The notes under the pieces were generated by a model. It saw only the letters and a program-made list of their open reading frames with translations, ran no database searches and was not told the origin of the DNA. A stretch of DNA of 64,000 bases from Promethearchaeota archaeon (lineage in GTDB: Archaea; Asgardarchaeota; Lokiarchaeia; Sigyniarchaeales; SOKP01): positions 1 through 64,000 of the forward strand of contig JAUWGH010000003.1 in assembly GCA_030606485.1 (NCBI GenBank), in the 5' to 3' direction. Below are positions 37,645-57,629 of this stretch, piece after piece. Made by a program: the position numbers and the translations under genes. How positions within the stretch are numbered: position 1 is the stretch's first letter; every line of letters begins with the position of its first letter.

Positions 37645-39054
37645 ATGTCAGACTCAGCTAAAAATATAATTAAATTTCTTTGTGACAGGTTTTTTGAATT
37701 AGATTATTATCCAACCAGTTTAAGTGGACTATTAGATTTACCAATAGATAAGTTGAGGGATTTTACGCAAAAGGATATTTCAAAATTTAATAAAATCGAT
37801 ATCAAAATATTACGTGATTTAACCACAATTAGTGAAGAAGAGTTTTTAGAACTTGCAACGCTAACAAACATGGATTTAAATATATTAAATAATGCAAAAG
37901 TTGCCGCTACTTTAATAGCAAATGCCTGGACTAAAAGAAAAGAATATATAAAAAAATCTCAGAGCAAAATCGTTGTAGCAGGGCTTGATTATGCAGGAAA
38001 AACATCTCTTATTAATAGATTAATGCATGATCATACTTATGGGGATTTGATTAATCTAGAGCCTACAATAGGCGCAAATATCCAAGAATTTGAATCGGAT
38101 AATTTAAACTTGATAATATGGGATCTTGGAGGGCAAAAAAGTAATTTAGAGGAATATATCCAAGAACCAGAGAAATTTTTTATCCAACTAGATGTTTTAT
38201 TTTTTGTATTTGATGCTCAAGATGATGTTCGCTATGAAGCTGCTCTTAAATATTTAAATGATATCTTAGAAATTCTTGAATTTTTAAAAGAAATTCCTTA
38301 TATCTTAATTCTTATAAATAAAGTAGATCCTGACATCGAAAAAGATCCCGATTTTCAAATCAAACTTGAATATTTATCTGATAAAATTACAAGAATCTTT
38401 CTTAAGAAACCAAAAAACGTAAACTATGAAATAATACAAACAAGTATTTATAATATTTATTCCCATGAGCCTGAAATCGTAAAAACCATAAAAAATGTTT
38501 TTTCAAAAGATATTATTGCGAAGAAAGAAAAAAGAGAAATGGAAATTGATGAAAAACTTCAGAGGATATTGGATATTAATTTTAAATTAATGGATAAAGT
38601 TGTTTCTGAACTCTCTGACATAAAAAGAGTTTTATATAAATTAACACCATCAGATCTAAAACAATCAATCTACGCCGTTCCTTTCGATAAAGTTCCTTCT
38701 GATTTTGTATCAACTCCCAAAAAAATTGCTAAAAAACCAATAACTGCAAAAATTGAAAAGAAAAAACCTAAAAAAAAGAAAAAATCTAAAAAATCCGCAG
38801 TTCCTACTAAAATTCCTAAACCTATAAAATTATCTCCGCAACCATCCAAAATTGGAGAAGCAATGGATAAATTAAGTCAAAAATTTGAAGAAAGCGAACA
38901 GATAATGGCATTGGAAAATTTAACACCACCCAAACCTCCTCCAAAACCACCGTCAATTCCCCCACAAAACATTATTAATCCTCGTAGCCAAATAATGTTA
39001 GAATTAAAAGATATCTTCAAAAAAAAGGGAATCGTGAAAAAAGACATTCCTTAA
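37645..39054 (+). CDS. Arf-like GTPase with HhH-like N-terminus and Lys/Pro-rich tail
   Basis: A 469-residue protein. Residues about 20-95 resemble tandem helix-hairpin-helix units (KIDIKILRDLTTISEEEFLEL). An Arf/Sar-like GTPase follows: G1 GLDYAGKTS (113-121), T141 in EPTIGAN, G3 WDLGGQ (159-164), and G4 NKVD (225-228). A coiled region (about 290-335) leads to a Lys-rich stretch (361-389), a proline run at 428-440, and a short helical end (446-465) spaced like an actin-binding WH2 motif. Known Arf proteins are about 180 residues, so the additions are notable. The WH2 idea is speculative. It is a single-gene unit. Confidence 0.82.
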   Translation: MSDSAKNIIKFLCDRFFELDYYPTSLSGLLDLPIDKLRDFTQKDISKFNKIDIKILRDLTTISEEEFLELATLTNMDLNILNNAKVAATLIANAWTKRKEYIKKSQSKIVVAGLDYAGKTSLINRLMHDHTYGDLINLEPTIGANIQEFESDNLNLIIWDLGGQKSNLEEYIQEPEKFFIQLDVLFFVFDAQDDVRYEAALKYLNDILEILEFLKEIPYILILINKVDPDIEKDPDFQIKLEYLSDKITRIFLKKPKNVNYEIIQTSIYNIYSHEPEIVKTIKNVFSKDIIAKKEKREMEIDEKLQRILDINFKLMDKVVSELSDIKRVLYKLTPSDLKQSIYAVPFDKVPSDFVSTPKKIAKKPITAKIEKKKPKKKKKSKKSAVPTKIPKPIKLSPQPSKIGEAMDKLSQKFEESEQIMALENLTPPKPPPKPPSIPPQNIINPRSQIMLELKDIFKKKGIVKKDIP

Positions 39055-41200: not shown

Positions 41201-41572
41201 TTAAGATAAAAATTCTTTTATAACTTCTTTGAATTCCTTGAGGTTTAATGGTTTTGAGAGCGATTTATTAAAACCAGCCCTAGCAAATATGGATTCCCTA
41301 TTACCTTCAACTGGAGAAGAAGAGGCGGCAATAATTGGAATCCCTTTAAATTTATCCATTTTGCGGAGTTCTTTACAAATCCCAATTCCTTTTAATTTTG
41401 GAAGGTTATTATCTAAAATAATAAGATCGGGATTCCCAGATTTTATCATTTCTAAGCCTTTATCTCCCCGAGTTTCATAGAAGACTTCAATATTTGGGAT
41501 TTTCTTGAAGATAGCTTTATATAATTTGATATTGGCTTCGTTATCTTCGATAATAAAAACTTTTTTTTTCAA
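41201..41572 (-). CDS. Single-domain response regulator (receiver)
   Basis: A 123-residue CheY/DivK-like receiver: acidic pair in IIEDNEANIKL, phosphoacceptor Asp in LIILDNNLPKLKG (about residue 54), the Thr/Ser switch in AASSSP, and Lys in LSKPLNL. No output domain, so it passes signals to other proteins. It is related to the receiver at 51656-52024. It is the lower edge of the signalling island. Confidence 0.88.
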   Translation of the reverse strand: MKKKVFIIEDNEANIKLYKAIFKKIPNIEVFYETRGDKGLEMIKSGNPDLIILDNNLPKLKGIGICKELRKMDKFKGIPIIAASSSPVEGNRESIFARAGFNKSLSKPLNLKEFKEVIKEFLS

Positions 41573-41670: not shown

Positions 41671-42597
41671 TTGAAATATATTTTTGGACCAGTTCCATCT
41701 CGACGGTTGGGAAATTCATTAGGAGTTGATCCAATCCCTTCTAAAACTTGCAATTTTTCATGTATTTATTGTCAATTAGGAAGAACAACAAACTTAACAA
41801 ATACAAGAAAAAATTTTTTTCCAAAAGAAGATATAATTCAAGAAATGAAACTATCATTAAAAATTCACGAAAAAACGATGGATTTTTTAACTTTTGTAGG
41901 AAGTGGAGAACCAACATTATATAAGGATTTGAAAGACCTTATTTTAGCGGCAAAACGATTAACAAATAAACCAGTTTGTGTAATAACCAATGGAGCATTA
42001 TTGTATAACCGGGAAGTGCAAAATTCTTTAATGGAAGCAGATGTCATTATGCCAAGTTTAGATGCAGGAGATGAAGAAATGTTTAGAAGGATTAATCGAC
42101 CTCATCCTGATATAAAATTTGATAAGATGGTTGAAGGAATGATTGAATTTAGAGAAAAATTTCCCGGTAAAATCTGGATGGAGATAATGTTAATGAAGAA
42201 CATTAATGACGGAATCGAATCACTTAAAGTGATTAAAAAAATCCTAAATCAGATTAATCCAGACCGTACATATATTAATGTACCTATAAGACCTCCTGCA
42301 GAATCTTGGGTAATAAAGCCAAGTAAAGAATCAATTGAAAGATGCAAAGAAATATTAGGTGAAATCTATAATATCTCTTTTCCTGAAGAAGGGCAATTTT
42401 TTAGTCCGAGTTCTGACTTGGAAAATGAAATTTTATTATTAATAGAAAGACATCCGATGAGGCATGAACAAATTCTTAAAACATTCCCAAATTTCTCTGA
42501 AAAGAAAATATTAACAATCCTATATAAATTAGAAAAGAAAGGAAAAGTAATAAAAAAGAAATATGATGAGGTAATATTCTGGAATTTTATTCCGTAA
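41671..42597 (+). CDS. Radical SAM protein with C-terminal winged helix
   Basis: A 308-residue radical SAM enzyme. The [4Fe-4S] motif is C27-x3-C31-x2-C34 in TCNFSCIYC, preceded by the characteristic FGPVPSRRLGNSLGVD opening, and GSGEPTLY binds SAM. Residues about 245-308 form a winged helix (HPMRHEQILKTFPNFSEKKI). Proteins with this opening are widespread in archaea and their substrates are unknown. The start is TTG. Its end overlaps the convergent kinase gene by 11 bases. Confidence 0.88.
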   Translation: MKYIFGPVPSRRLGNSLGVDPIPSKTCNFSCIYCQLGRTTNLTNTRKNFFPKEDIIQEMKLSLKIHEKTMDFLTFVGSGEPTLYKDLKDLILAAKRLTNKPVCVITNGALLYNREVQNSLMEADVIMPSLDAGDEEMFRRINRPHPDIKFDKMVEGMIEFREKFPGKIWMEIMLMKNINDGIESLKVIKKILNQINPDRTYINVPIRPPAESWVIKPSKESIERCKEILGEIYNISFPEEGQFFSPSSDLENEILLLIERHPMRHEQILKTFPNFSEKKILTILYKLEKKGKVIKKKYDEVIFWNFIP

Positions 42598-45439
42598 TTA
42601 TTGAATCTGGTTTTATTGCGACTTTACCTAAATTTTTAGGTATTGAAAATTTAAATGTAGTCCCTCTTCCCAACTCGCTGGTAAAAGAGATATTTCCTCC
42701 ATGCATATTGATTAATTTCTTAGTTAAGGGTAATCCCAATCCGGTACCTGGAATTGAATCAACAAAAAATGAACTTACTCTTTGAAATTCCTTAAATATT
42801 AGATCATAATCTTCCTTTGCAATCCCTATTCCAGTATCAATAATATAAAATTCAAATTGATTTTCATTTTCCATAATTTTCAGCTTAATTCCCCCATCAT
42901 TGGTAAATTTAATTGCATTACTTAACAAATTGTAAAGTATTTCCTTTAATCTTATCTGATCTGCTTCAATAAATTTTTCCGTTTCTAATCCAATTACCTC
43001 AAATTTCAACTTTTTTTCATCAAGTAAGGGCTTAACTGTTGATCTAATCTGATTTATTAAATTATTTAAAGGAAATTTTTTAATATTTAATCTCATTTCA
43101 CCCGATTCTATTTTGGATATATCCAAAATTTGATTTATCATGTTTAATAAATGCTCACCAGAGGATCGAACGTCTTTAATAAAATCTTTTTGTTCTTTAT
43201 TTAAGCTCCCGTAAATTTCTTCCGCTAATAAATCTGAAAATCCAATAATTGCATTTAAAGGTGTTCTTAACTCATGAGACATGGTGGCCATAAATTCACT
43301 TTTAAATTGAGAAGATTTTAGAACTTCATTAACATAAAGATCTTTTTGTTTTATAGTTTCATTTAATTTTGTTATAGCATCATCCAATTCTATAGTTCTA
43401 ATTTTTACTTTTTCCTCTAATTCTTCAGCAAATTTTTTTATTAACGCCTCTGCTTTCTTTTTCTCTGTAATATCCCGAACTATACCATAAAATCCACACT
43501 TCTTATTTTGTGAATCATACTTTAAAGAAATAGAGAGTTCAATATTACTTTTTATTTCGTTCTTTTTAATGAGCTCAAAATCATAGATTTTAGCTATTGT
43601 TTCAGTTTTATAAACTTCATTAAAAGATTTAAAAACGCTTTCTGCAGTTTCTTCTGTTAAGAATTGCCGATAATTCAAACCCATTAATTCATCTTTTGGA
43701 TATCCAGTAATTTCGCACCAACTATCATTAAAAAATGTAAAATTTCCTTCAAGATCACTTTCATAATATCCTTCTTTAATATTTTCAAGAATAGTCCTAT
43801 GTTTTTCTTCAGATTCTCTTATTTTCCTTTGCGTTTCCTTTATTGTCGAAATGTCTTGAATTACAAAATAGAATAGTTTTTTTCCACTAATTTGTACTAT
43901 TGAAGAATAGAGCATAACAGAAATCAAACTTCCATCCTTTTTAGACAATGGAATTTCCAGTGGTTTTGGAGTGTTTCCCTTTATTATAGTTTTAAAATTT
44001 TTCATAATTTTTGAATAAGAATTTAAAGGAAATTTTCCAATATTTTTAAAATGCTTACCAATTATTTCATCTCTCTTATATCCAAACAAATTTTCAGCGC
44101 TAGGATTACAATCAAGAAATTTTCCTTGTGTATCCATTAGCGCTATAGATAAGGGAGTATTTTCGAATAGATGTCTAAATTTTTGTTCAGATTCTTTTAC
44201 TTTTTGTTCTGCCTTCTTGCGTTCTTCCTCAAGATCTATCATATTTAAACCAAAAGCAATATCTTGAGCAACCTCCTTAAATAAATTTTGTTCATCCAAA
44301 TCATTAACTAAATCTCGAGGAATAGATGCAGATAACCAACCGAAAATTTTTTCTCTGTGTTCCAATCGAATAGTCATCGCTGCTCTACCCTCATATACTT
44401 TCGATAAAGGACAATCTGTGCAAGTTAAATTAGGATTTTCATTGATAATTAAATCTGATTGCACTATTGCCTTTCTGCTGCATTCAGTCATTTCACCTTT
44501 CTTTAATAATTCAATCATGGATGAAAAATTTTCACCCAAACCTGCTTCAGCGGTTAATATAACATTATTTGAACTGTTTAAGAAGGCAATCCAAGCGTTA
44601 AAATAGCTTCGAGTTTCTATAAGATTATTACAGGCGCCTTGAAGCAATCTCTTACGATCTTTTTCTTTAATTATAAGCTGATTTACATTGCTAATGACTC
44701 GTAATACAGAAGAGATATGTTTTATTTTCTCCTCAGCCTTCTTACGCTGAGTATTATCTCTCAGTACTGCAATATAAAAATCTCCCTTATCATCTTTTAA
44801 TAATTGCCCATTGACAGAAACAGGAACATAATACCCATCTTTATGTCGAACTCTAAATTCAGTAGAGATTTTTTCTCCGGTAGCATTTGCTTTTTTCAAT
44901 GCTTCTGCAACATTTAATAAATCATCTGGATGGATATAATTTAAACTACTTAAGCCAATCATTTCCTCTTGTTTATACCCAAATATATCAAAACATTGAG
45001 GACTTATATAAGTTATCTTCGTTTTTAAAGTAGTCTCTAATATAATATCAGAAATGTTATTAATAAATCCACGATATCTTTTTTCGGATTCCTTTATTTT
45101 TTGTTCTGCCTTTGAGATCTGCTTACTTAAAAAACCAACAAAATAACCAGTAAATATAAATATAATCCCTCGAATTAAGTTATCGATTATTGTATTCAAT
45201 CCAATAAAAAATGAAAAGAAAATTAATGAACTAGTCAAAAATATAGGCACAATTAAACCTCTTTTTTTCCACCAAAGACATGCTAAAATAGTGGGAATAT
45301 AAAAAAAATGAGTAAATATCGTGCTAATTTTAAGTATGAAGAGAAAATAATATTCTAAAAAGCATAAAGCAGATAAGACTGCAATTATAATAAGAATTTC
45401 AAATTTTTCTTCAGGGTTTTTAATTTTTAATCCAATCAT
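42587..45439 (-). CDS. Membrane sensor histidine kinase with PAS and GAF domains
   Basis: A 950-residue kinase. Residues about 10-105 contain four hydrophobic segments. Then PAS (about 120-235), GAF (about 250-415, with CTDCPL), PAS (about 425-540) and PAS (about 550-665). A coiled helix leads to HisKA with MSHELRTPLNAIIGFS, in which His is the phosphorylation site, and a HATPase with NLLSNAIKFT, DTGIGIAKED and GTGLGLPLTKKL. All kinase motifs are intact. It has no attached receiver. It is the third gene of a minus-strand unit, 25 bases after the longin-like gene. Confidence 0.92.
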   Translation of the reverse strand: MIGLKIKNPEEKFEILIIIAVLSALCFLEYYFLFILKISTIFTHFFYIPTILACLWWKKRGLIVPIFLTSSLIFFSFFIGLNTIIDNLIRGIIFIFTGYFVGFLSKQISKAEQKIKESEKRYRGFINNISDIILETTLKTKITYISPQCFDIFGYKQEEMIGLSSLNYIHPDDLLNVAEALKKANATGEKISTEFRVRHKDGYYVPVSVNGQLLKDDKGDFYIAVLRDNTQRKKAEEKIKHISSVLRVISNVNQLIIKEKDRKRLLQGACNNLIETRSYFNAWIAFLNSSNNVILTAEAGLGENFSSMIELLKKGEMTECSRKAIVQSDLIINENPNLTCTDCPLSKVYEGRAAMTIRLEHREKIFGWLSASIPRDLVNDLDEQNLFKEVAQDIAFGLNMIDLEEERKKAEQKVKESEQKFRHLFENTPLSIALMDTQGKFLDCNPSAENLFGYKRDEIIGKHFKNIGKFPLNSYSKIMKNFKTIIKGNTPKPLEIPLSKKDGSLISVMLYSSIVQISGKKLFYFVIQDISTIKETQRKIRESEEKHRTILENIKEGYYESDLEGNFTFFNDSWCEITGYPKDELMGLNYRQFLTEETAESVFKSFNEVYKTETIAKIYDFELIKKNEIKSNIELSISLKYDSQNKKCGFYGIVRDITEKKKAEALIKKFAEELEEKVKIRTIELDDAITKLNETIKQKDLYVNEVLKSSQFKSEFMATMSHELRTPLNAIIGFSDLLAEEIYGSLNKEQKDFIKDVRSSGEHLLNMINQILDISKIESGEMRLNIKKFPLNNLINQIRSTVKPLLDEKKLKFEVIGLETEKFIEADQIRLKEILYNLLSNAIKFTNDGGIKLKIMENENQFEFYIIDTGIGIAKEDYDLIFKEFQRVSSFFVDSIPGTGLGLPLTKKLINMHGGNISFTSELGRGTTFKFSIPKNLGKVAIKPDSIITE

Positions 45440-45464: not shown

Positions 45465-46103
45465 TTATTTTATTGAGTTTGTTGAAAGCATCTCATCAAT
45501 AGATTTAGTTATTTCTTTACATGATTCAAGCATCATTTCTGTGTAATTCACAACTGTTTGCTCAGACAGATTTCCTTGTTCTTTCCCTTCTAAAATTAAT
45601 TCGCAAAATCCTTGAATAGTATTAATTCCACTTCTAATTTGCATAGTAAATGACTCTAATGGTAAAACTTCATCTTTTTTCATATATATTTCATTTATTT
45701 CACTAAAAAATTTTTCAAATGATTTTTTATCATCTGACAAAATTTGCTTGTTTCCTAATTTTAGGAATTCCATTTCAATTCTTCGGAAATGAATTATTGG
45801 GATTAGAGGATATGCTACATCCCGAAGAATTATCAGTGAATATAATTGTTTCCCTCCTCGAGCACTAGGATCTTCAATTTCAATTTTACAGATCTGGGAA
45901 TAAAATTGACTAAAATCCAAAATGACAAATTTATTTTTAGTATTTAATGCATCTCTCAAAAGATTTTTAATGAATTGCTCTTCCTTAAGTGGAAAAGATG
46001 AATATAAAGTTCTGGGACCTAAGATTTGATCATATTTTCCAATAATTAAAATAAATTGATATTTATCCAGCCCTTCTTTAAAATTTAGGTAAGGATCTGA
46101 CAC
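45465..46103 (-). CDS. Longin-like domain fused to a His-less kinase dimerisation domain
   Basis: A 212-residue protein. The first 120 residues have a longin/roadblock-like opening (YQFILIIGKYDQILGPRTLY) and alternating strands. Residues 150-207 align with a HisKA four-helix domain: SFTMQIRSGINTIQGFCELI against MSHELRTPLNAIIGFSELL. The phosphoacceptor His corresponds to Met154, and no ATPase domain follows. It cannot act as a kinase; it may dimerise with, or inhibit, the kinases encoded on either side (gaps 53 and 25 bases). The longin call is structural inference from strand pattern. Confidence 0.6.
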   Translation of the reverse strand: MSDPYLNFKEGLDKYQFILIIGKYDQILGPRTLYSSFPLKEEQFIKNLLRDALNTKNKFVILDFSQFYSQICKIEIEDPSARGGKQLYSLIILRDVAYPLIPIIHFRRIEMEFLKLGNKQILSDDKKSFEKFFSEINEIYMKKDEVLPLESFTMQIRSGINTIQGFCELILEGKEQGNLSEQTVVNYTEMMLESCKEITKSIDEMLSTNSIK

Positions 46104-46156: not shown

Positions 46157-48463
46157 TTATTTAATTGTAGATATTTTTTGCAACTTTTCTTCAGTTAATG
46201 TGATTTTAGGAATTGTAAAAAAGAATGTGGTTCCTTTATCTAATTTACTTTCAAACCAAATTTCCCCTCCATGAAGATTTACTAGTCTTTTCGTTAATGC
46301 TAAACCCAACCCTGTCCCCTGAACCTGTTTTATCTTATCACCTTCTACTCTTCCAAATTCTCTAAAAACTACATCATAATCCTTCTTTGCGATACCAACA
46401 CCAGTATCTTTAATTTGAAATTCCCAATGATCGATTCTCTGAATACCACGAAGTGAAACATTTCCTTTCTCTGTAAATTTAAATGCATTACTTAAAATAT
46501 TATATATTATTTGTTTGAAACGTACAGGATCAGCAATTAAACAATCTTGTTCATTTATACCTTTAACTTTAAATTCCAAATTTTTGTTTGAATATAATGG
46601 TTTTATTACTGCATTAATTTCTACAATTAATTCATTTAAATCAAATTTCTGCATATCTAATTTTAATTTTCCAGCTTCAATTTTTGAGATATCTAAAATA
46701 GAATTTATTAAACTCAGTAAATGATCTCCCGCAGAATTGATATCATTTATGAAATCTTGTTGATCTACATTTAAATCCCCATATGATCCATCTAATAACA
46801 ACTGTGAAAAACCTAATATTGCATTCAACGGTGTTCTTAATTCATGAGACATTGTAGCCATAAATCGTGATTTAATATCCAAGGAAGCAAGTAATTGATC
46901 AAATAACATTTCTCGATTCTTTTCAAAATTCTTTCTATCAGAAATATCGGAAAAAAAAGATTGAATGATTATTTGATCTTCAATTCTTAATATGGTTGAC
47001 GAAACTTCTATATACAATAGGTTTCCATGCTTTTCTTTTATCAATGCTTCGACTTTATTTAAAATTGATAGATCATAAATATCTTCTTCGTAATGTTTTT
47101 TAACTAAATCCATAAATTCTGGGTCAAATAACTCGTATATATTGTGTGTTAATAATTCTTCTCTATTATAGTTAAATAAATTCTCGGTTTCTCTATTAGC
47201 TTTTAAAATTTCACCCTTTTGATTTAATAGAAAAATCCCCAATGGAGCTGTTTCATTAAGCGCATGGATTTCTTGGAGTGATTTTTCCAATTCCATTATT
47301 TCTTCTTCTGATTTTTTTCGGGCTGAAATATCTTGTATAATAAGTTGTATTAATTTTTTTTTACCTATTTTAAATAAAGCAAATTGCATATTCACCCATA
47401 TAAGGCTTCCATCCTTCTTATTTACTTGAATATCAATAGGCTCTGGAACCTCTCCTTTATTAATTTCTTTAGATTTATTTTTTATTTCTGGAAGATATTT
47501 TGGAGGAATAATAGAATTTTGACTATAAAATTTATTGATTAACTCTTCCTTTTTATATCCAAATATTTTTTCTGTAGTATTATTGCAATCAATAATCACA
47601 CCTTCCAAATTTAGTAGGATTATAGAATTTGGAGAATTTTCGAATAGATATCTGAATTTTTCTTCTGACTCTTTTTTCTTTTTTTCCGTCTTCTTGCGTT
47701 CCGTAATATCTTCGCAATTCGTTAGGAGTACAGTTTTACCACCCAACTCTATTAAGTCTATATTCATTAGAGCTGTATAAATTGTGCCGTCTTTTTTTTT
47801 CAATTTTACTTCAAAATTATGGACCTTATCAGTTTCATGCAATTTATTAAGTAATTTTTTACGTTCATTTGGATCAACATAAGTAGAAATAAGTCTTTGA
47901 GTGTTTAACTCATCTAAGGTAAAACCTGTTATTTCTTGCATTTTTTTGTTTATAGCAAGAATATTACCCTCAAGGTCAGCAATCCCAATCCCTATTGGAG
48001 AAGAATTAAATAAAAATTGATATTTTTCCTCAGATTTTTGTATTTGGCTAGTTAATTTTTCCATTTTAATCCATGTTCGATTTCTTTCAATAGCATGTTG
48101 GATTGAACGTAATAATATATTGCTACTAACCTCATTTTTAATCAAGTAATCTTGAGTTCCTGCTTTAACCGCTTCTACGCCTATTTGAAAATCATCATTT
48201 ACAGTTAGAACAATAATTGGAATATTTTGAACCTTTTCACAAGTCTTAAATACAGTATTAAGTCCAGAGCTATCTGGAAGGTTTAAATCTAAGAGAATTA
48301 CGTCATAATTTTTATTATCAATACGTTTAAATCCATCCTTAAGGGTTTCAACCCAAACTAAACTAAATTTTAAATTTTTAATCTCTTTTAGCATTTCTTC
48401 TATTAATCGAGCATCACCTGGATTATCTTCGATTAACAGAATATTAATTAAATTATCTAACAT
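46157..48463 (-). CDS. Hybrid receiver-PAS-histidine kinase
   Basis: A 768-residue cytoplasmic kinase. An N-terminal receiver (about 1-125, phosphoacceptor in VILLDLNLPDSSG, Lys in LIKNEV) is followed by three PAS domains (about 145-255, 270-380, 400-510), HisKA (MSHELRTPLNAILGFS) and a complete HATPase (NILSNAFKFT, DTGVGIAKKD, GTGLGLALTKRL). The receiver in front suggests input from an upstream phosphodonor. First gene of the unit that also encodes the longin-like protein and the membrane kinase. Confidence 0.92.
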   Translation of the reverse strand: MLDNLINILLIEDNPGDARLIEEMLKEIKNLKFSLVWVETLKDGFKRIDNKNYDVILLDLNLPDSSGLNTVFKTCEKVQNIPIIVLTVNDDFQIGVEAVKAGTQDYLIKNEVSSNILLRSIQHAIERNRTWIKMEKLTSQIQKSEEKYQFLFNSSPIGIGIADLEGNILAINKKMQEITGFTLDELNTQRLISTYVDPNERKKLLNKLHETDKVHNFEVKLKKKDGTIYTALMNIDLIELGGKTVLLTNCEDITERKKTEKKKKESEEKFRYLFENSPNSIILLNLEGVIIDCNNTTEKIFGYKKEELINKFYSQNSIIPPKYLPEIKNKSKEINKGEVPEPIDIQVNKKDGSLIWVNMQFALFKIGKKKLIQLIIQDISARKKSEEEIMELEKSLQEIHALNETAPLGIFLLNQKGEILKANRETENLFNYNREELLTHNIYELFDPEFMDLVKKHYEEDIYDLSILNKVEALIKEKHGNLLYIEVSSTILRIEDQIIIQSFFSDISDRKNFEKNREMLFDQLLASLDIKSRFMATMSHELRTPLNAILGFSQLLLDGSYGDLNVDQQDFINDINSAGDHLLSLINSILDISKIEAGKLKLDMQKFDLNELIVEINAVIKPLYSNKNLEFKVKGINEQDCLIADPVRFKQIIYNILSNAFKFTEKGNVSLRGIQRIDHWEFQIKDTGVGIAKKDYDVVFREFGRVEGDKIKQVQGTGLGLALTKRLVNLHGGEIWFESKLDKGTTFFFTIPKITLTEEKLQKISTIK

Positions 48464-48662: not shown

Positions 48663-49121
48663 TTAAGTTATTTCTGGCCCATCAGGTGGTAATTTAACAA
48701 TCGTAAACCAGAAATCTCCAATAGATTTCACCACTTTTATAAATTGCTCCATATCTATAGGTTTGGAGATATAACAATTCGCATGTAAATTGTATGTTTT
48801 TATGACATCCTCTTCAGATTTCGAAGTTGTTAAAATTACGACCGGAATTCGCCTTAAATCTTTATCTTGCTTAATTTCAGCTAAAACCTCACGTCCATCT
48901 TTCTTAGGTAAATTTAAATCAAGAAGAATTACATCTGGTCGTGGTGAATTTTTAAATTTTTCTTTTTTAAATAAAAAATCCATTGCCTCTATACCATCCA
49001 ATGCTATGTGTAATTTATTAGCAATTTTACATTCTTTAAGAGCTTCTTTTGTCAAACGCACATCTCCTGGATTATCTTCAATTAACAAAATTTCTACCAT
49101 TTTATGTTTTTGTTTTGTCAA
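48663..49121 (-). CDS. Response regulator (Rcp1-like receiver)
   Basis: A 152-residue receiver of the phytochrome-response-regulator type. Acidic pair in LIEDNPGDVRLT, phosphoacceptor in VILLDLNLPKKDG, TTSKSEED switch and YISKPID Lys. It follows the kinase at 49144-51084 by 22 bases on the same strand, so that kinase is its likely phosphodonor. No output domain. Confidence 0.9.
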   Translation of the reverse strand: MTKQKHKMVEILLIEDNPGDVRLTKEALKECKIANKLHIALDGIEAMDFLFKKEKFKNSPRPDVILLDLNLPKKDGREVLAEIKQDKDLRRIPVVILTTSKSEEDVIKTYNLHANCYISKPIDMEQFIKVVKSIGDFWFTIVKLPPDGPEIT

Positions 49122-49143
49122 AACTTTTACCTCATTTTTTTCT

Positions 49144-51084
49144 TTAAATTGCTTCTTTTTTCATATAATTATTTTTTTTTATTGGAATAATAAAATGAAA
49201 TGTTGAACCCTTTCCAACTTCTGATTCAACCCAAATTTTTCCATTATGTCTTTCTATAATTCTTTTACATAGGGCTAGACCTATTCCAGTTCCAAGATAT
49301 TCAGACTTTCTGTGTAAACGTTGGAATATAATAAAAATACGATCAAAATATTCTGGATCTATGCCGATCCCGTTATCTTTTACTGAGAATTGCCAGTTAT
49401 TTTTTTTTTTTTTTGCTGAAATATGTATTCTCACGGGATCTTTACTGCGGAATTTTAATGCATTATCAATCAAGTTTTGAAACACTTGTATTAATTGTGT
49501 TTTATCAGCCAATATGTTTGGTAAATAGTCATGGGTTATCTCTACATCATTTTCTTTTATAGTTTCATGTAAATTGAAAAGAACATCTTTTAAAACCTCT
49601 TCACAGTTAATAACTTCAAAAGGATTACCACGAGTCTGAATTCTTGAATATTCTAACAAATCTTCAATAAGAATTTTCATATTATTTGCTCCATCCACAG
49701 CAAATTTAATGAACTCATTTGCATCCTCATCCAGCTTATCTTTATAACGCTTTGCTAGGAGTTGGGTATAACTTGTCACCATTCTTAATGGCTGTTGTAA
49801 ATCATGAGATGCAACATAAGCAAATTGTTGTAGTTCTTCATTGGAACGTTTTAAAGCATTTAATGTATCTTTCATTGCATTTTCTGCTATTATACGCTCG
49901 GTGATGTCCCGGAATATAAGAACAACACCAATAATATTTCCTTTATCGTCTTTTATCGGAGCACCACTATCGGCAATCGGTATTTCCTTTCCTTCTTTAG
50001 ATATTAAAACAGTATGATTCGCCAGACCAACAACAACGTCCTCTCGAATTACTCTCGATACGGGACTTTCGATTTGCTTGCGAGTTTTCTCGTTAACGAT
50101 GTTAAAAATATCTCCTACGGGTTTTCCCGTGGCTTCTTCTTGCTTCCAACCAGTTAAAGACTCGGCAACAGGATTTAAAAACGATATCTTACCTTTTGTG
50201 TCGGTAGCAATTACCGCATCGCCAATACTATTAAGTGTCGTAGAAAGCCATTCTTCGGATTCTTGGAGCTTTTTTGTGCGCTCTTCCACCAATTCTTCAA
50301 GATGCTCGCGATATTTCCTTAATTCCTCCTCCGCTTTCTTTCGCTCCGTAATATCTTGTCCAACTCCTTGAATCCCAATTGCCTTTCCATCAGTATCTTT
50401 TACCGCAGTAACATTCCAAGAAATCAATACCCTTTCTTTTTTTCCCTTTTTCCAAAAATATTGCTCAAAACCTTCTTGACTCATATTTGGATCTATTCTA
50501 ACCTTCTGCCTTACGGGTTCAGCCCTTTCTAATTCATTTTTCTCAAGCATTGATCTTATATCCTTACCAATCATCTCCCCTTCTTCATATCCTAATACTT
50601 TACAGGTGTATGGATTCATTAACGTTACTCTCCACTCATCATCGTGTGCCAAAACGATGGCATTGGAATTATTTATTAACATTTGGTATCTATGCAATTC
50701 TGCCTCTATCTTCTTACTCTCAGTAATATCTCTGAAAACCTCAATAACTGCTGGATTACCATAAAAATCTTCTACGAAAAAAGCGTCAATTCCAAAATAT
50801 TTTGTTTCTTTGGTTGAAGGAAGTGTTGAAATTTTTTCGAATCTCATCCTACGTTGTTCTATTGTTAAAGATTTTTCAATAGGACAAGATTCACAAGGTT
50901 TTGAGCGCTTAAATAAAGTTTCATAGCAGTTTTTTCCAACCAAATTCTTTCCGAATTCTTTGAGAGCATTTTCATTTGCAAATAATATCTTATTCTTCTG
51001 AGAAATAACCAAAATTGGATCTTTCATATTTGAAAAGATTAACCCTATTTTTTCCAGAGATTTTTTTAACTCTTGTGTTGCCAT
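49144..51084 (-). CDS. Soluble PAS-histidine kinase
   Basis: A 646-residue kinase without membrane segments. Three PAS-like domains (about 10-125, 135-250, 280-395) precede a HisKA of the phytochrome-like group (YVASHDLQQPLRMVTSYTQL) and a HATPase (NLIDNALKFR, DNGIGIDPEY, GTGIGLALCKRI). The first PAS has a Cys cluster (CYETLFKRSKPCESCPIE), a possible redox or metal sensing site. Its partner receiver is the next gene. Confidence 0.92.
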   Translation of the reverse strand: MATQELKKSLEKIGLIFSNMKDPILVISQKNKILFANENALKEFGKNLVGKNCYETLFKRSKPCESCPIEKSLTIEQRRMRFEKISTLPSTKETKYFGIDAFFVEDFYGNPAVIEVFRDITESKKIEAELHRYQMLINNSNAIVLAHDDEWRVTLMNPYTCKVLGYEEGEMIGKDIRSMLEKNELERAEPVRQKVRIDPNMSQEGFEQYFWKKGKKERVLISWNVTAVKDTDGKAIGIQGVGQDITERKKAEEELRKYREHLEELVEERTKKLQESEEWLSTTLNSIGDAVIATDTKGKISFLNPVAESLTGWKQEEATGKPVGDIFNIVNEKTRKQIESPVSRVIREDVVVGLANHTVLISKEGKEIPIADSGAPIKDDKGNIIGVVLIFRDITERIIAENAMKDTLNALKRSNEELQQFAYVASHDLQQPLRMVTSYTQLLAKRYKDKLDEDANEFIKFAVDGANNMKILIEDLLEYSRIQTRGNPFEVINCEEVLKDVLFNLHETIKENDVEITHDYLPNILADKTQLIQVFQNLIDNALKFRSKDPVRIHISAKKKKNNWQFSVKDNGIGIDPEYFDRIFIIFQRLHRKSEYLGTGIGLALCKRIIERHNGKIWVESEVGKGSTFHFIIPIKKNNYMKKEAI

Positions 51085-51337: not shown

Positions 51338-51423
51338 TAGTTATTCCGACATATTCTAACGAATTTTCATCTTATTTTTATGTGGTTGAATAAAATTGAC
51401 AAATTTTAATTTAACAATATCTG

Positions 51424-51439
51424 ATAACAAATTTGTTAT
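51424..51439. promoter_or_regulatory. 16-base perfect palindrome ATAACAAATTTGTTAT
   Basis: A perfect palindrome in the 318-base space between the truncated and the intact receiver genes. Its half-site ATAACAAAT recurs at 52112-52120 and in the long inverted repeat at 52151-52233. The rest of the spacer shows no coding features. A DNA-binding protein site is plausible. Confidence 0.45.
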
Positions 51440-51655
51440 AAGGTATTAATAATTGTATCACTATATAAATATACTTGTTGTAATTCTTACATCATAATAT
51501 CAATTTTTTAAAAGATTTTTTATAACGATTAAAAAGTAATAATTTAATTTTTCATAAAAAAAGTTAATTCATTAAAAAATAGTGTAAAAAATTTCCTTTA
51601 AAAAGAAATATAATCTTAAAAATTGTAATATCAGAATTTTTATATTAAAATAAGA

Positions 51656-52024
51656 TTAGACAATAACATTTTTGACTGTTTTCCTAAAATCGTTAATATT
51701 TATTGGTTTTGCAATGTAAGTATCGAAACCTGCTTTCAATATACGTTCTTTATCACCTTTCATCGCGAAAGACGTGACAGCAATAATTGGAATGTTTTTA
51801 TATTTTTCAAGTTTACGAAGTTCTTTACAAATATCGATTCCACTCATATCTGGTAGTTGAATGTCTAAAATTATTAGGTCTGGATTATCTGACTTTAGAG
51901 ATTCAAAAGCTCGACCACCATGGGTCTCTGCTATAATTTCAATATCAGGCATTGTATTTAGGACTGCTTTAAATAATTTCATGTTTTTTTCATTATCTTC
52001 CACAAGAAATACTCGTTTTTTCAT
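51656..52024 (-). CDS. Single-domain response regulator (receiver)
   Basis: A 122-residue receiver: FLVEDNEKNMKLF acidic pair, LIILDIQLPDMSG phosphoacceptor, VTSFAMKGD switch, IAKPINI Lys. It is divergent from the RHH-like gene at 52460 across a 435-base region with repeats. The truncated copy at 51134 is its closest relative here. No output domain. Confidence 0.9.
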   Translation of the reverse strand: MKKRVFLVEDNEKNMKLFKAVLNTMPDIEIIAETHGGRAFESLKSDNPDLIILDIQLPDMSGIDICKELRKLEKYKNIPIIAVTSFAMKGDKERILKAGFDTYIAKPININDFRKTVKNVIV

Positions 52025-52150
52025 AAAACCTTAACTCTATATTATTGTAATGATGAAATACGCATCTCCTCATCATCAAATGTTTGTATATTACTATAAC
52101 AACACTCTTTGATAACAAATTGATACAAAATATTAGTGATAAACATTGTA

Positions 52151-52233
52151 TTTAAATATTTGTTATAATAATGTGTTTATTAATATTAAATTCTTCATTT
52201 TAAATATTTACTCTATTATAACAAATATTTAAA
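52151..52233. repeat. Long inverted repeat, 20-base perfect arms
   Basis: Arms at 52151-52170 (TTTAAATATTTGTTATAATA) and 52214-52233 (its exact reverse complement), 43 bases apart. Both contain the ATTTGTTAT/ATAACAAAT core; a further single core is at 52112-52120. It lies in the 435-base space (52025-52459) between a receiver gene and the first RHH-like regulator, and could be that regulator's operator. I see no other content in the spacer. Confidence 0.6.
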
Positions 52234-52459
52234 AATTAAAAAGATTATGTAGTAATTACAAATATATAGTTTTTTGTGTGTAAAACCCGATATATAAAAA
52301 GACAAAATAAAATTGAATAATGCGTGTTTATTAATGCATTGAATTAGTAGGGCAGTATGGAATTTGGTTTCTTGTAAAAAAATGATTTTAATTATTAAAT
52401 TGATTTCTTTGATTCTGATACAATATTGAAATCCTCATACTTAAAATTTTTGAGAAAGA

Positions 52460-53320
52460 ATGAATGAAAAAAAAACTGAAGAAATGGAAAAATATGAAAA
52501 AATGACTGGCAAACACGCAATTTGGCGTGGAGTAATAACCGAAGGATTTAAAAAATGGCAACGAGGAGAAAAGATATACGATAGATTTAAGGAGAGAATA
52601 GCTCTTTATGTATCTAAAGAAACTAAAGAAGATTGGCAGAATTTCGTAAGAGATTCAAAATACACTTCAATTTCTAAACTAATAAGGGATGCTGTAAACA
52701 ATTTCATTGAAAAAAAAATAAAAGTAATAGAGCATGAGAATTATAATAAAGGTGATCAACTTAGAAATCTTTCAGATATCTCTTATGTTTTAAAAGAAGC
52801 ATTAACTTCAATAAAAGGATTTTCCCAATTATTAATTGAAAATTATAAGGAAGAACTCAATGAGGAAATCATTTTAAAAATAAAAGAAATTTTTGATAAA
52901 AGCATCTTTCTTGAAAACAAGATTAATGAATCGTTAGAATACTCTTATATTAGTAAATCACAATATGACATTTTACTAATTGAAGATGATATATCAACAA
53001 TAAAGTTATTAAAATCATTTTTTGAAAGGAAGGGTTATAGTTGTAAAGGTGTCATTAGTGGTTCTAAAGGATTGAATGAATTAAAGAGAAATATTCCTAG
53101 AATTATTTTATTGGATATTATTTTACCTGATATTAATGGATTTGATGTTTGCAAAATAATAAAATCTAATAAAATATATCAAAATATTCCCATCTTTCTA
53201 TTAACTGCTGTATCAAGTCTAAAAGTTGAGCATTTTATTAAAAAAGCAAAAGTAGAAGGTTATATCTCAAAACCTTTTGATTTTTCGGATTTTAATTCAA
53301 TATTTAAATATTTAAATTAA
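52460..53320 (+). CDS. RHH-like / His-less DHp / receiver protein
   Basis: A 286-residue protein with an unusual order. Residues 18-45 (AIWRGVITEGFKKWQRGEKI) form a conserved block shared with the paralogue at 53799. Residues about 46-85 look like a ribbon-helix-helix (IALYVSKETKEDWQNF ... SISKLIRDAV). Residues about 103-158 resemble a HisKA dimerisation domain (YVLKEALTSIKGFSQLL), but the phosphoacceptor is Tyr109. A receiver follows with EDD, Asp219 in LLDIILPDING and Lys271. No kinase ATPase domain. It may be a DNA-binding output of the kinases encoded nearby. The RHH call is by pattern. Confidence 0.65.
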   Translation: MNEKKTEEMEKYEKMTGKHAIWRGVITEGFKKWQRGEKIYDRFKERIALYVSKETKEDWQNFVRDSKYTSISKLIRDAVNNFIEKKIKVIEHENYNKGDQLRNLSDISYVLKEALTSIKGFSQLLIENYKEELNEEIILKIKEIFDKSIFLENKINESLEYSYISKSQYDILLIEDDISTIKLLKSFFERKGYSCKGVISGSKGLNELKRNIPRIILLDIILPDINGFDVCKIIKSNKIYQNIPIFLLTAVSSLKVEHFIKKAKVEGYISKPFDFSDFNSIFKYLN

Positions 53321-53333
53321 TTTTTAATAATTT

Positions 53334-53663
53334 TTAATCTCTTAAAATGGGAATAGAAAAAGAAAATTTACTTCCTCTATTTCTTCCTGCTGATTCCATC
53401 CAGATATTTCCCCCGTGTAATTCAATAATCTTTTTCGCAATATATAGACCGAGCCCTGTACCCTCAATTCCAACATCCCAACCTTGACCATATCTTTCAA
53501 TTTTTCCAAATTGTTTAAATAATTGATTCTTTTCCTCAGCGGAAAACCCAATTCCATTATCTTCTATTGAGATTATAAAAAAGTTAGATTTTACTTCAGA
53601 AAAGATTTTAATTTCTCCTCCAAGAGATGTGTAGTTAATTGCGTTTATTAATATAAGCATCAT
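53334..53663 (-). CDS. Stand-alone kinase-type HATPase domain
   Basis: A 109-residue open frame that is just the ATPase part of a histidine kinase. It has an N-box remnant (LINAINYTSLGGEI) with the Mg-binding Asn kept, G1 DNGIGFSAEE, F-box LFKQFGKI, G2 GTGLGLYIAKKI, and HGGNIWMES. There is no dimerisation domain, and the first part of the N-box helix is missing; the frame stops 9 codons upstream of the ATG. It is either the end of a lost kinase or an ATPase that serves DHp-only proteins in trans. It lies between the two RHH-like genes, on the opposite strand. Confidence 0.6.
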   Translation of the reverse strand: MMLILINAINYTSLGGEIKIFSEVKSNFFIISIEDNGIGFSAEEKNQLFKQFGKIERYGQGWDVGIEGTGLGLYIAKKIIELHGGNIWMESAGRNRGSKFSFSIPILRD

Positions 53664-53798
53664 AAAATTAAAATTGGAAAAATTAAATTAAATTTTGTGT
53701 TAATAATTGAAAAAACTTATATTATACTTTGTGATAATAATAATCTAGAAATGTAATAAAAATAGTGAATCTTTCCTTTTTTATTGGTGATTTCAATT

Positions 53799-54659
53799 TT
53801 GAGTAATGAAAAAAAAAGTAGTGAAATGGAACAATATGAAAAAGAGACAAGGAAATATGCTATTTGGCGTGGTATTATAACTGAAGGATTTAAAAAGTGG
53901 CAACGAGGAGAAAAAATTTATGATAGAGATAAAGAGAGAATATCACTCTATATTGCAGAAGAAACTAAAGATAAATGGCAGAATTTTATTGAAAGTAGTA
54001 AATATTCTTCTATTTCAAAATTGATAAGAGATGCTGTTGATTTTTTTATTAATGAGAAATTAAGAGTAGGTGTTGATGAAAAACTTAAAAAACTAGGACC
54101 TTTAAAATCAATTACAAATCTTTCTCATGATTTAAAAGAGGCTTTAACTTCGATAAAAGGATATTCACAGTTATTGCTTGAAAATTATAAAGATAATTTG
54201 ACAGAAGATGTATTATCAAAAATTAAGGAGATTTTTAATAAAAGTATATTTCTTGAAAATAAAATAAAGGAAGTTTTGGAAAAAGGAGAAATTGGAAAGA
54301 GACAATATGACCTTCTATTAATCGAAGATGATCCATCGACTATAAAATTATTAACAACTTTTTTTGAAAGTAAAGGTTATTCTAGTAGAGGGGTAATTAG
54401 TGGTTCTAAGGGAATAGATGAATTAAAAGCAAACATTCCAAAATTAATATTGTTAGATATAATATTGCCAGATATAAATGGATATGATGTTTGTAAAATG
54501 ATAAAATCTGAAGAGAAGCTTAAAAATATACCAATTTTCTTCTTAACAGCTATTCCAAGTTCGGAAGTTGAGAAAAGAATTAAAGATGCTGGTGCTGATG
54601 GTTATATTTTAAAACCATTTGATTTTAGTGATTTTGAAATTTTATATACATATCTATAA
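53799..54659 (+). CDS. RHH-like / DHp / receiver protein (paralogue with His)
   Basis: About 286 residues, paralogous to the protein at 52460 along the whole length, including the AIWRG...FKKWQRGEKIYDR block and the RHH-like segment (ISLYIAEETKDKWQNF). Here the DHp-like region keeps a His (NLSHDLKEALTSIKGYSQLL), followed by a receiver with EDD, a phosphoacceptor in LLDIILPDING and Lys in ILKPFDF. No ATPase domain. A TTG at 53784 is also open, but TTG at 53799 gives SNEKKSSEMEQYEK, which lines up with the start of the paralogue. A TTTGTGATAATAAT similar to the repeat core lies about 70 bases upstream. Confidence 0.65.
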   Translation: MSNEKKSSEMEQYEKETRKYAIWRGIITEGFKKWQRGEKIYDRDKERISLYIAEETKDKWQNFIESSKYSSISKLIRDAVDFFINEKLRVGVDEKLKKLGPLKSITNLSHDLKEALTSIKGYSQLLLENYKDNLTEDVLSKIKEIFNKSIFLENKIKEVLEKGEIGKRQYDLLLIEDDPSTIKLLTTFFESKGYSSRGVISGSKGIDELKANIPKLILLDIILPDINGYDVCKMIKSEEKLKNIPIFFLTAIPSSEVEKRIKDAGADGYILKPFDFSDFEILYTYL

Positions 54660-54806: not shown

Positions 54807-56114
54807 ATGGTTATAGGCATAGCATTATTTAGTTGGGATAAGAAGGTGGGTGCGGTTTTAGAGATTAAACATCCTGAAAATCTTGATTTATCACAAAATT
54901 TAATTAACAAAATATATATGACTCATGCTTATAGGCAGGAAAATCAAAAAGAAGAGTTAATGGAAATTAATCTGGAGAATCAAATTATTCTTAGTTACTG
55001 TGATATGTCTAAAGTTGTAAAACTTGGGTATGAAATAATAATCCTTATTGTTCATGAGAAGGAGAAAATACATCTTAAAAATTTAAAATCTGAATTATTT
55101 GAATTTGCGAGAGAAGTGTTAAATAAACCTAAAATTGAGAGAAAGAAGTATTTTTTTGAAAATCTCGATTTGTTTTTTAAAGAAACAGTAAAGAAAAAGA
55201 TATTATTAGTTGGACGAGCAGCTACAGGAAAATCTAGTATTAAGCAAGTTATTTTTGAAGGAAAGATGCCACAGGAGTTATTATCTAATCCCCTTGAGCC
55301 AACTCGTGGTTTAACACCCTCTGTTTATTCATGGTTAGATCTAGATTTGGGTATTTTCGATTCAGCTGGTCAAGAACTGGATTATTTATTAGATGATAAA
55401 AATGAACAAACCTTAGCATTCGAAAATACTGATATTGTAATATATATGTTTGATTACTTAACGTGGATTGAAAATAACGAAATAATAATAAAAGATATAA
55501 AAAAAGTTTCAAGAATTATTAAACAAGAGTCTTATAATGCTAAAATTATATTATTTCTACATAAAATTGACTTAATTAAGGAAGAAAACAGAGAACAAAA
55601 CATAAAAAATATCCAGCGAGAAATAAAAGAACAATTGAATTTGCAGATTTATTTTACAAGTCTTTATCCAAATTTAATTTATAATATTTATAATGCCTTT
55701 TATGAGATTTTAAGTAATTTTTCCAAGGAGACTATTTATTTTAAAGAGGTTTTGGATGAAAAAATTAAAGATAATTCAAAATCTATGTGTTTTATAACTA
55801 ATCAAAATAGTAGTATAGTTGTTCAGACAATGTCTAATGATTTCAATTTTAAATTAATTAACCAAATTCATAGATTAATTGCTCAATTTGACCAATCATT
55901 TGAAGACATGAGCATTAATGATAATATCGATTATATGATACTTTCAAGTTTGAAAAATTTTAATATTATTATGAAATTTCTTAATCTCTCGAATTATGAT
56001 CTCAAAAATTTAATTTTAATCTCTGAAACAATTAGTATCATTCAATTAATAGAATTTTGTGAGGAAATTAAAAATACTTTGAATAGATATTTTTATAAAG
56101 ACATTCAAAAATGA
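54807..56114 (+). CDS. Rag/Gtr-like GTPase with longin-like N-terminus
   Basis: A 435-residue protein. Residues 1-105 form a longin/roadblock-like domain (GIALFSWDKKVGAVLEI). A Rag-type GTPase follows: G1 GRAATGKSS (136-144), switch Thr166 in LEPTRG, G3 DSAGQE (185-190) with the catalytic Gln position filled, and G4 HKID (242-245), the Rag variant of N-K-x-D. The last 120 residues may be a second longin/roadblock-like domain. In eukaryotes Rag heterodimers sense nutrients at membranes. The next gene encodes another GTPase of the same type, 9 bases downstream. Confidence 0.78.
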   Translation: MVIGIALFSWDKKVGAVLEIKHPENLDLSQNLINKIYMTHAYRQENQKEELMEINLENQIILSYCDMSKVVKLGYEIIILIVHEKEKIHLKNLKSELFEFAREVLNKPKIERKKYFFENLDLFFKETVKKKILLVGRAATGKSSIKQVIFEGKMPQELLSNPLEPTRGLTPSVYSWLDLDLGIFDSAGQELDYLLDDKNEQTLAFENTDIVIYMFDYLTWIENNEIIIKDIKKVSRIIKQESYNAKIILFLHKIDLIKEENREQNIKNIQREIKEQLNLQIYFTSLYPNLIYNIYNAFYEILSNFSKETIYFKEVLDEKIKDNSKSMCFITNQNSSIVVQTMSNDFNFKLINQIHRLIAQFDQSFEDMSINDNIDYMILSSLKNFNIIMKFLNLSNYDLKNLILISETISIIQLIEFCEEIKNTLNRYFYKDIQK

Positions 56115-56123
56115 GAATCTAAA

Positions 56124-57629
56124 ATGGGTAAAAAGATAATTTTCGTTGGACCGCCTGGAGCGGGAAAAACTACCTTAAGAAAAGTCTTTTTTGAGGGAGA
56201 ATCTTCTTCAAGATTATTAGACTATGCATTGGAGCCTACGCATGGTAAAGAATCAGTTATTCTTCAGTTAAGTGAGGATGTTGGAGTGTTTGATCTAGCA
56301 GGTCAGGAAAATACAAGGTGGTTCGAAACAGATGACAAAGAAATTTTCTATGAATCAAAAATTCTTATAGTAGTTATTGATATTACAACGGACCATGAGA
56401 AAATTTTAGAGTTTATCGGAAAGGTTATTAAAACTCGAAATGAATTAATACCAACTGCAATCATTTATATATTAATTCATAAAATTGATTTGGTAGCACA
56501 AAAAACAATTAAAGCATTAAAATATAAAATTTCTGATGCTATTGGTAAGGAAAAGTTAGTTAAAATTGCATTTACAAGTATTCAGAAAGTGTATTTCCCC
56601 TCAACTTTTTCATTATTTATGGATATCTTAGATACATGTATAAGTGAAAGAGAAACTCCTGAAAGAATTGATTTGAATCTACTTCAAAATACTATTGATT
56701 TTTTATATGAATTACAAAAGAGTGTTTTAATTACGAAAAATGATTTACAGATAAGATTGAAAGCTCCTGATGAAATGATTGATTCTATAAGCAAACTATT
56801 GAGTAATAAAGGACATATTGATGTTTCAAAAATAAATGATAGAACAATTTTTAGTTTAACTGATAAAGGTAAAAATTATTTTAAAGAAATTTTAGATAAA
56901 TTTTCTCTGCAAAAATTGATTAAATTTGAGAAAGAACATTATAAGACAGAAGCCGCTTTAGGGCCAAAAGTTCCTCCATATTTAGGTTTTTTAGTGGCTG
57001 ATAAAGATGGAAAATCAATAATAAATGTAGAAGTATTTGACGGAGCTTTTGATTTATTCTTAAATACTGAAGAGGGAGCGATGAAAACTGATTTTGAGTT
57101 AATTCCTATGTTTATTAGTGCTTTAGAAAAATTCTCGGAAGAAATAAATATAAAGGACTTAGCAGGTTTTCAATTAAAGGGAACAAATATAGAAATGCAG
57201 ACTTTATCTTTTGAATTATATACGGTTACTCTTTTTATAAATCCAGAAACAAATGTTAAATTTTTTGAAGATCTAATCAGAGAATGGTTTGAAAATCTTT
57301 TTGAAGTACATAAAAAAGAAATTGAGTCTGCTATTGAGACAGGTTATATGACTAAAATTTCTAATTTAAATAAGGAAGGGAAAGAATGGTTGGAAAATCT
57401 TAACGAAAAATATAAAAACATGGCTATGAATCTAGAGATTTTTGATTTTGATCAAGCTAAAGTACTTTATCATCATATAGATGATATATCCGCAGATATT
57501 AATTTTAAATTTTCATTAATTTTAGAAAAAATTAAAAAATTAAAAATAGATTTGATGAAGGCGATATTAGTAGAAGACTTTCAAGAAGTAAAGGAAATTG
57601 CTAACAAAATCCGAGGAATCAAAGTTTAA
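56124..57629 (+). CDS. Rag/Gtr-like GTPase with winged helix and longin-like domain
   Basis: A 501-residue protein. The GTPase is at the N-terminus: G1 GPPGAGKTT (9-17), switch Thr39 in LEPTHG, G3 DLAGQE (57-62), G4 HKID (119-122). Residues about 185-265 look like a winged helix (VLITKNDLQIRLKAPDEMI ... FSLTDKGKNYF). Residues about 284-400 form a longin-like domain (YLGFLVADKDGKSIINVEV), and the C-terminus is helical. It is coupled to the preceding Rag-like gene and likely forms a heterodimer with its product (inference from the Rag family). Confidence 0.78.
   Translation: MGKKIIFVGPPGAGKTTLRKVFFEGESSSRLLDYALEPTHGKESVILQLSEDVGVFDLAGQENTRWFETDDKEIFYESKILIVVIDITTDHEKILEFIGKVIKTRNELIPTAIIYILIHKIDLVAQKTIKALKYKISDAIGKEKLVKIAFTSIQKVYFPSTFSLFMDILDTCISERETPERIDLNLLQNTIDFLYELQKSVLITKNDLQIRLKAPDEMIDSISKLLSNKGHIDVSKINDRTIFSLTDKGKNYFKEILDKFSLQKLIKFEKEHYKTEAALGPKVPPYLGFLVADKDGKSIINVEVFDGAFDLFLNTEEGAMKTDFELIPMFISALEKFSEEINIKDLAGFQLKGTNIEMQTLSFELYTVTLFINPETNVKFFEDLIREWFENLFEVHKKEIESAIETGYMTKISNLNKEGKEWLENLNEKYKNMAMNLEIFDFDQAKVLYHHIDDISADINFKFSLILEKIKKLKIDLMKAILVEDFQEVKEIANKIRGIKV

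Follow-up and report, generated by a model that had tools for sequence, protein, structure and literature searches.

Lokiarchaeia are the closest prokaryotic relatives of eukaryotes, and Rag-like GTPases and longins belong to the eukaryotic signature proteins that Asgard archaea carry. In eukaryotic cells, Rag switches control growth, and the Rag GTPases pair via a roadblock C-terminal domain (CTD) located right behind the G domain. The Lokiarchaeote MK-D1 has been reported to encode longin-GTPase-roadblock proteins as well as one Rag pair in an operon (Tran et al. 2024, PMC10933270); according to that paper, Asgard GTPase genes are generally not found in operons with longin or roadblock genes, and the regulators of Asgard Rag-like GTPases and longins are not known. 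Solved Lokiarchaeal Rag-like structures are LokiRagM (9m28) and LokiRagO (8yl2). Longin arginines of FLCN and NPRL2 were proposed or shown to act as GAP fingers (PMC8213707, PMC8534245), and NPRL2-like longins are already known in Asgards (PMC9834061). In Myxococcus, the small GTPase of the MglA/MglB/RomR-RomX module has a roadblock regulator and takes input from a response regulator below a kinase system (PMC9481161). Proteins of RHH-HisKA-REC architecture have been found in Lokiarchaeum (PMC5847659).

The window, a stretch of 64,000 nucleotides of Lokiarchaeal DNA, contains two neighbouring GTPase genes, P1 and P2 (Table 1). Like the eukaryotic Rag/Gtr proteins (RagA/B-RagC/D, Gtr1-Gtr2), both possess a Rag-type G domain, with PF04670 above cut-off, HKxD as G4 and TS[IL] as G5, and P1 joins the GTPase to a roadblock CTD. 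In contrast to them, P1 has an extra N-terminal longin, P2 has a winged helix and a longin-like domain instead of the roadblock CTD, and the P1/P2 clade is separate from RagA/RagC; a link to TOR is known for the eukaryotic proteins. With the Asgard Rag-like GTPases of MK-D1 they share GTPase class, longin-GTPase-roadblock architecture and paired Rag genes (PMC10933270). The passages of that paper examined here make no mention of a winged-helix fusion or of the longin protein described below as LgD, and its text gave no match for "histidine kinase". The two RHH-HisKA-REC proteins of the window (52460-53320 and 53784-54659) have the architecture of those in Lokiarchaeum, which were described there without a link to Rag GTPases. 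The Myxococcus module may be regarded as a functional analogue only: its GTPase MglA is not Rag-type, its regulator is a roadblock (the GAP MglB) and not an NPRL2/FLCN-type longin, and it lacks a longin-DHp fusion. A search of the open-licence literature found no Rag-like GTPases tied to histidine kinases, no longin-pseudo-DHp architecture and no longin-HisKA link in Asgards. What is new is the setting of P1 and P2 in a kinase-rich module; Rag-like GTPases as a class, their longin-GTPase-roadblock fusions and a Rag pair in one operon had been described before.

Table 1. Genes of the P1/P2 neighbourhood in the window, and domains of P1 and P2 (in residues)
Feature	Position	Strand	Length	Description and evidence
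ArfN	37645..39054	+	469 aa	N-terminal helical domain, Arf/Rag-like GTPase, Pro-rich tail; PF00025/PF04670
Stand-alone response regulator	41201..41572	-	123 aa	PF00072
PAS histidine kinase, hydrophobic N-terminus	42587..45439	-	950 aa	Pfam; 25 bp downstream of LgD, same strand
LgD	45465..46103	-	212 aa	NPRL2/FLCN-type longin 18-141, pseudo-DHp hairpin 146-210
REC-PAS-HisKA-HATPase hybrid kinase	46157..48463	-	768 aa	Pfam; 53 bp upstream of LgD, same strand
Stand-alone response regulator	48663..49121	-	152 aa	PF00072
PAS histidine kinase	49144..51084	-	646 aa	HisKA+HATPase_c
Stand-alone response regulator, no output domain	51656..52024	-	122 aa	PF00072; family Pfam E=1.4e-23
RHH-like - HisKA-like - REC protein	52460..53320	+	286 aa	Pfam; HisKA His replaced by Tyr
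Histidine kinase remnant	53334..53663	-		Intact 668-aa version in relative G096 (L071:4488-6494)
RHH-like - HisKA - REC protein	53784..54659	+	291 aa	Pfam; His retained; directly upstream of P1, same strand
P1	54807..56114	+	435 aa	Longin - Rag-type GTPase - roadblock-like CTD
P1 longin	residues 1-125			AlphaFold2 order b-b-a-b-b-b-a-a at residues 2-118
P1 Rag-type GTPase	residues 126-305			PF04670 E=2e-24; RagA/Gtr1 profile match E=4e-24
P1 roadblock-like CTD	residues 307-431			AlphaFold2 order a-b-b-a-b-b-b-a
P2	56124..57629	+	501 aa	Rag-type GTPase - MarR-like winged helix - longin-like domain - helical tail
P2 Rag-type GTPase	residues 1-182			PF04670 E=2e-15; RagA profile match E=2e-16
P2 winged helix, MarR-like	residues 184-260			AlphaFold2 order aaa-bb-a; MarR-family profile matches
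P2 longin-like domain	residues 286-395			AlphaFold2 order bb-a-bbb-a, moderate confidence
P2 helical tail	residues 409-500			Long helices in AlphaFold2 model

Exactly 9 bases (56115-56123) separate the P1 stop from the P2 ATG. The GTPase motifs are GRAATGKS (G1), DSAGQE (G3), HKID (G4) and TSL (G5) in P1, and GPPGAGKT, DLAGQE, HKID and TSI in P2, and the H-K-x-D motif was invariant across 21 aligned homologues of each protein. For both, Gtr1_RagA (PF04670) was the best Pfam family, and PDB profile searches placed Rag/Gtr chains as the closest solved relatives, with Rho, Arf and Rab far behind. The best 41 Foldseek matches of a joined P1+P2 model were all Rag/Gtr-type GTPases, including the solved Lokiarchaeal 8yl2, and nearly all of the matches spanned about 300-330 aligned columns. 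A roadblock-like CTD follows straight after the G domain of P1, as indicated by the profile match (the yeast Gtr1 alignment covers P1 residues 127 to 395), the AlphaFold2 model and the Foldseek matches to full-length Rag/Gtr. These data confirmed what a preliminary description had claimed from the sequence, namely two adjacent Rag/Gtr-like GTPases whose G1 and G3 are intact and whose G4 reads HKID, a longin-like N-terminus in P1, with which the AlphaFold2 topology agrees, a winged helix and a longin-like C-terminus in P2, and longin/roadblock parts fused within the pair. The C-terminal roadblock of P1 was absent from that description.

In order to place the two proteins, a G-domain tree was built from 84 sequences and 182 columns, rooted on Rab-like GTPases and holding only three eukaryotic sequences. 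P1 formed one group, and P2 together with GTPase-winged-helix proteins its sister, both within a single Lokiarchaeal clade (SH-aLRT/UFBoot 96.9/98). A second Rag-like clade united eukaryotic RagA, Gtr1 and RagC with Loki Rag proteins of about 310 aa and ArfN; in this tree, with its three eukaryotic sequences, P1 and P2 did not group with RagA/Gtr1 and RagC/Gtr2. Since they form their own clade beside the eukaryotic Rags, we class them as Rag-like and not as RagA/RagC orthologues. The Rag/Gtr kinship proposed in the preliminary description stood, and P1/P2 are, as judged against three eukaryotic sequences, not the RagA/RagC split itself. Their clade being separate from that of RagA, Gtr1 and RagC, they are best read as the product of a duplication within Asgards, in parallel to RagA/RagC; with 182 columns and three eukaryotic sequences, this reading is provisional.

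P1 and P2 sit at the end of a two-component island located at 41-55 kb, a neighbourhood that the preliminary description had overlooked entirely, longin included. Of the receiver domains (PF00072) in the 3.75-Mb genome, 7 of 13 lie beside P1 (C8:41219-54632), and 4 of its 16 HATPase_c domains (PF02518) fall within 42635-53654. Between 37.6 and 54.7 kb we found three PAS histidine kinases (HK), three stand-alone response regulators (RR), a receiver fragment, two RHH-HisKA-REC proteins, a kinase remnant and LgD, together with two GTPases, ArfN and a Rab-like one. The neighbour of P1 of about 122 aa was also considered as a roadblock protein, which was ruled out; it is a response regulator.

The gene order in relatives was recurrent, running ArfN-LgD-GTPase/winged helix-HK-HK-P2/P1-response regulator, with inversions. 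ArfN is there a conserved neighbour of LgD, and a response regulator of 121-124 aa, of the same family as the one at 51656..52024, lies next to P1 in divergent orientation at 11 loci. In about 16 of the family's genomes P1 and P2 still lie side by side (42-57% identity), separated or overlapping by a few bases, and because of this conservation their adjacency is not due to chance. The block extends over several genera and three families of Lokiarchaeales, and occurs outside the window's own family in G091, G092 and G162. HK/RR genes made up 41 of the 145 ORFs at pair loci versus 0 of 124 at 15 other stretches of the window's own genome, which were chosen at GTPase hits and are mostly GTPase loci. 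Likewise, no HK/RR was present at five loci of Rag paralogues of about 310 aa in genomes without the module. Across 65 genomes of the family, scored from search tables with fixed cut-offs, P1 and LgD were both present in 20 and both missing in 41, with P1 alone in 1 and LgD alone in 3 (Fisher p=1.2e-12, shared ancestry not fully corrected). Within-genus tables, which control shared ancestry partly, gave 3/0/0/16 (both/P1 only/LgD only/neither) in genus g7 and 7/0/1/16 in genus g8. Taken together, the block is patchy and inherited together across Lokiarchaeales; it is patchy also within genera, and partly eroded in the window's own genus.

These observations bear on a rival reading, in which P1 and P2 would be a stand-alone Rag-type heterodimer that pairs via its roadblock/longin parts and signals like eukaryotic Rags, with the kinases as mere neighbours. 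We consider this unlikely. It would account for the conserved adjacency within a few bases and for the Rag fold seen by Foldseek, and an AlphaFold2 heterodimer was reported for the operonic MK-D1 pair (PMC10933270). However, the kinase synteny is far over background, and P1 occurs without an adjacent P2 in three genomes (G101, G102 and G140), where it is still close to response regulators. Moreover, the roadblock CTD is missing after the G domain of P2. When P1 and P2 were co-folded with AlphaFold2 as a single chain, read through the single TGA stop, the domains were good but their joint arrangement was not confident (pTM 0.38); the shallow alignment, A6, and the four-residue junction keep this from being a negative result. 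The preliminary description had called the pair self-contained, which is probably incorrect given the larger conserved module around it.

LgD provides a candidate for the link between the kinases and the GTPases. Its AlphaFold2 model (pLDDT 85) consists of a longin followed by a hairpin of two helices of about 30 residues each. The first Foldseek PDB matches were NPRL2 in GATOR1 complexes, yeast Npr2 and FLCN complexes, followed by LOV-histidine kinases, with modest TM-scores of 0.3-0.45 over the query; a PDB sequence search with LgD or its profile returned nothing relevant. Pfam Folliculin was detected in 23 of 27 LgD homologues, weakly and under the curated cut-off (E 2e-4 to 2e-3). LgD thus resembles FLCN-FNIP2 and GATOR1 (NPRL2-NPRL3) in its longin fold, with NPRL2/FLCN as nearest structural match, in its LGP-x-x-x[YF] start and in its finger arginine. 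This residue is R82, within the loop D..ARG..QLY; 27 of 27 homologues have arginine there, and it stands in HMM register with FLCN R164, NPRL2 R78 being one column off in the automatic alignment. In contrast to those proteins, LgD ends after the hairpin, with no DENN or other NPRL2/FLCN C-terminal domains, and its GAP activity is predicted. In an hhalign comparison, the hairpin proved homologous to the DHp domains of the histidine kinases at these loci (92%, E=7e-7), and HisKA Pfam was found in 3 of 27 homologues. The phospho-His position holds L in 15 homologues, M in 6, I in 3, V in 2 and a gap in 1, and since the phospho-accepting histidine is missing the hairpin is termed a pseudo-DHp. As judged from two-component biochemistry, it could provide a surface that binds receiver domains or kinase DHp helices. 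We infer that LgD is a candidate GAP with a Rag-GAP-like longin.

On this basis we see an even chance that P1 and P2 make up the GTPase core of a signalling module, conserved in Lokiarchaeales, that places Rag-type GTPases under a two-component phosphorelay with LgD as GAP. The model draws on domain anatomy, gene order, co-inheritance, the register of the LgD arginine with FLCN Arg164 and the loss of the phospho-His in LgD; GAP activity, docking, phospho-control, direction of control and P1-P2 assembly are its predicted parts. In it, the PAS histidine kinases would sense a signal and phosphorylate the stand-alone response regulators. A receiver that consists of a single domain lacks an output and has to act through binding. 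The phosphorylated regulator, or the kinase DHp itself, would dock on the pseudo-DHp hairpin and thereby switch the NPRL2/FLCN-like longin on or off, and the Arg82 finger would then speed GTP hydrolysis on P1, P2 or a related GTPase-winged-helix protein, its natural substrates on this view. The N-terminal longin of P1 may perhaps serve as partner longin to that of LgD, as FNIP2 or NPRL3 do in eukaryotes. The output would be the nucleotide state of the P1/P2 pair, as read by putative effectors. That kinases and regulators together act through the longin-pseudo-DHp protein on the Rag-like pair, as a phosphorelay-gated Rag switch of Lokiarchaeales, is a more tentative proposal, which we rate somewhat short of even.

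A different role for LgD is improbable in our estimation: it could be a scaffold or a GEF-like longin instead of a GAP, with phosphorylation altering localisation or exchange, as for RomR/RomX-MglA in Myxococcus. Longin/roadblock dimers are often GEFs (PMC10933270), and Myxococcus does have a response regulator-roadblock-GTPase circuit (PMC9481161), but the best structural matches of LgD are the GAP longins NPRL2/FLCN and not TRAPP or Mon1-Ccz1, and its finger arginine is invariant. Very unlikely is mere genomic convenience, with an island and GTPases of unrelated functions transferred or lost as one block, for although the block is patchy within genera and decaying in the window's genus, the same partners stay together in relatives where the order is reshuffled and inverted, and LgD itself joins a longin to a kinase-derived DHp hairpin.

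Returning to control of the Rag-type GTPases by a phosphorelay through LgD, the conserved gene cluster suggests a past in which Rag-type switches took direct input from sensor kinases. If true, the Rag/longin-GAP pairing of eukaryotic TOR nutrient control would be older than eukaryotes, and its early inputs would have been two-component sensors. The locus offers concrete partners for Rag-like GTPases, namely a candidate GAP whose arginine can be tested and, as candidate inputs, histidine kinases and response regulators. The role of Rag GTPases before TOR and lysosomes is now open to direct test with soluble recombinant proteins.

The winged helix of P2 was matched by MarR-family regulators in profile searches (3tgn, E=0.002), and had been proposed to link the pair either to DNA or to protein docking. 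In the homologue comparison its recognition helix was not basic, with a net charge of -3 to +3 that was not conserved. The DNA-binding half of the proposal is therefore unsupported, and protein docking appears more likely. Among the three longin-like domains (P1 N-terminus, P2 C-terminus and LgD), hhalign detected no significant similarity. At the position of the P1 N-terminal longin that matches the FLCN finger, 11 of 21 homologues have R, 7 have K and 3 another residue; P1 of the window has K.

In the window's genus, the gene pair P1/P2, which encodes two Rag-type GTPases with longin and roadblock or winged-helix fusions, is disrupted in two relatives. In a sister species (G094), residues 1-89 of P1 are joined straight to residues 442-501 of P2, the interior of the pair having been deleted. 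At locus L072 of G095, both homologues are interrupted by stops or frameshifts, with a TGA inside that of P1 and a TAG inside that of P2. Taken together, these findings suggest that the module is undergoing loss in this genus, or else reflect assembly error.

Within the island of the window, two two-component genes are in decay: a receiver fragment and a histidine kinase, truncated here and intact in G096 (668 aa). Two paralogous RHH-HisKA-REC proteins without an ATPase domain are also encoded, an architecture already recorded (PMC5847659).

Features and their coordinates, in the window unless a relative's genome is named
Feature	Coordinates
ArfN	37645-39054
Receiver fragment, 68 aa	51149-51337
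RHH-HisKA-REC, Tyr for phospho-His	52460-53320
Histidine kinase, truncated	53334-53663
RHH-HisKA-REC, phospho-His kept	53784-54659
Calcineurin-like phosphoesterase (Pfam)	57762-59651
Putative DNA methyltransferase (read from sequence)	59738-60988
P1-P2 remnant, G094	C216:52178-52608
Interrupted P1 and P2 homologues, G095	L072:5557-8377
Tandem Rag-like pair (L143), G110	C32:8000-22000

ArfN comprises a helical N-domain, an Arf/Rag-like GTPase and a Pro-rich tail, and in many relatives it adjoins, divergently oriented, the longin protein LgD. In the G-domain tree, ArfN and eukaryotic Rags group together. Conservation of the phosphoesterase and putative methyltransferase genes 3' of P2 is limited to the same genus.

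Judging from sequence matches, the longin-like C-terminal domain of P2 also occurs as separate paired proteins: tandem stand-alone ORFs (G139:C70, G145:C55 and G148:C318; about 170-230 aa each) match P2 residues ~260-445 only. At L143, near which no two-component genes were found, two Rag-like GTPases of ~300 aa each lie in tandem, possibly an operonic Rag pair of the kind described in MK-D1.
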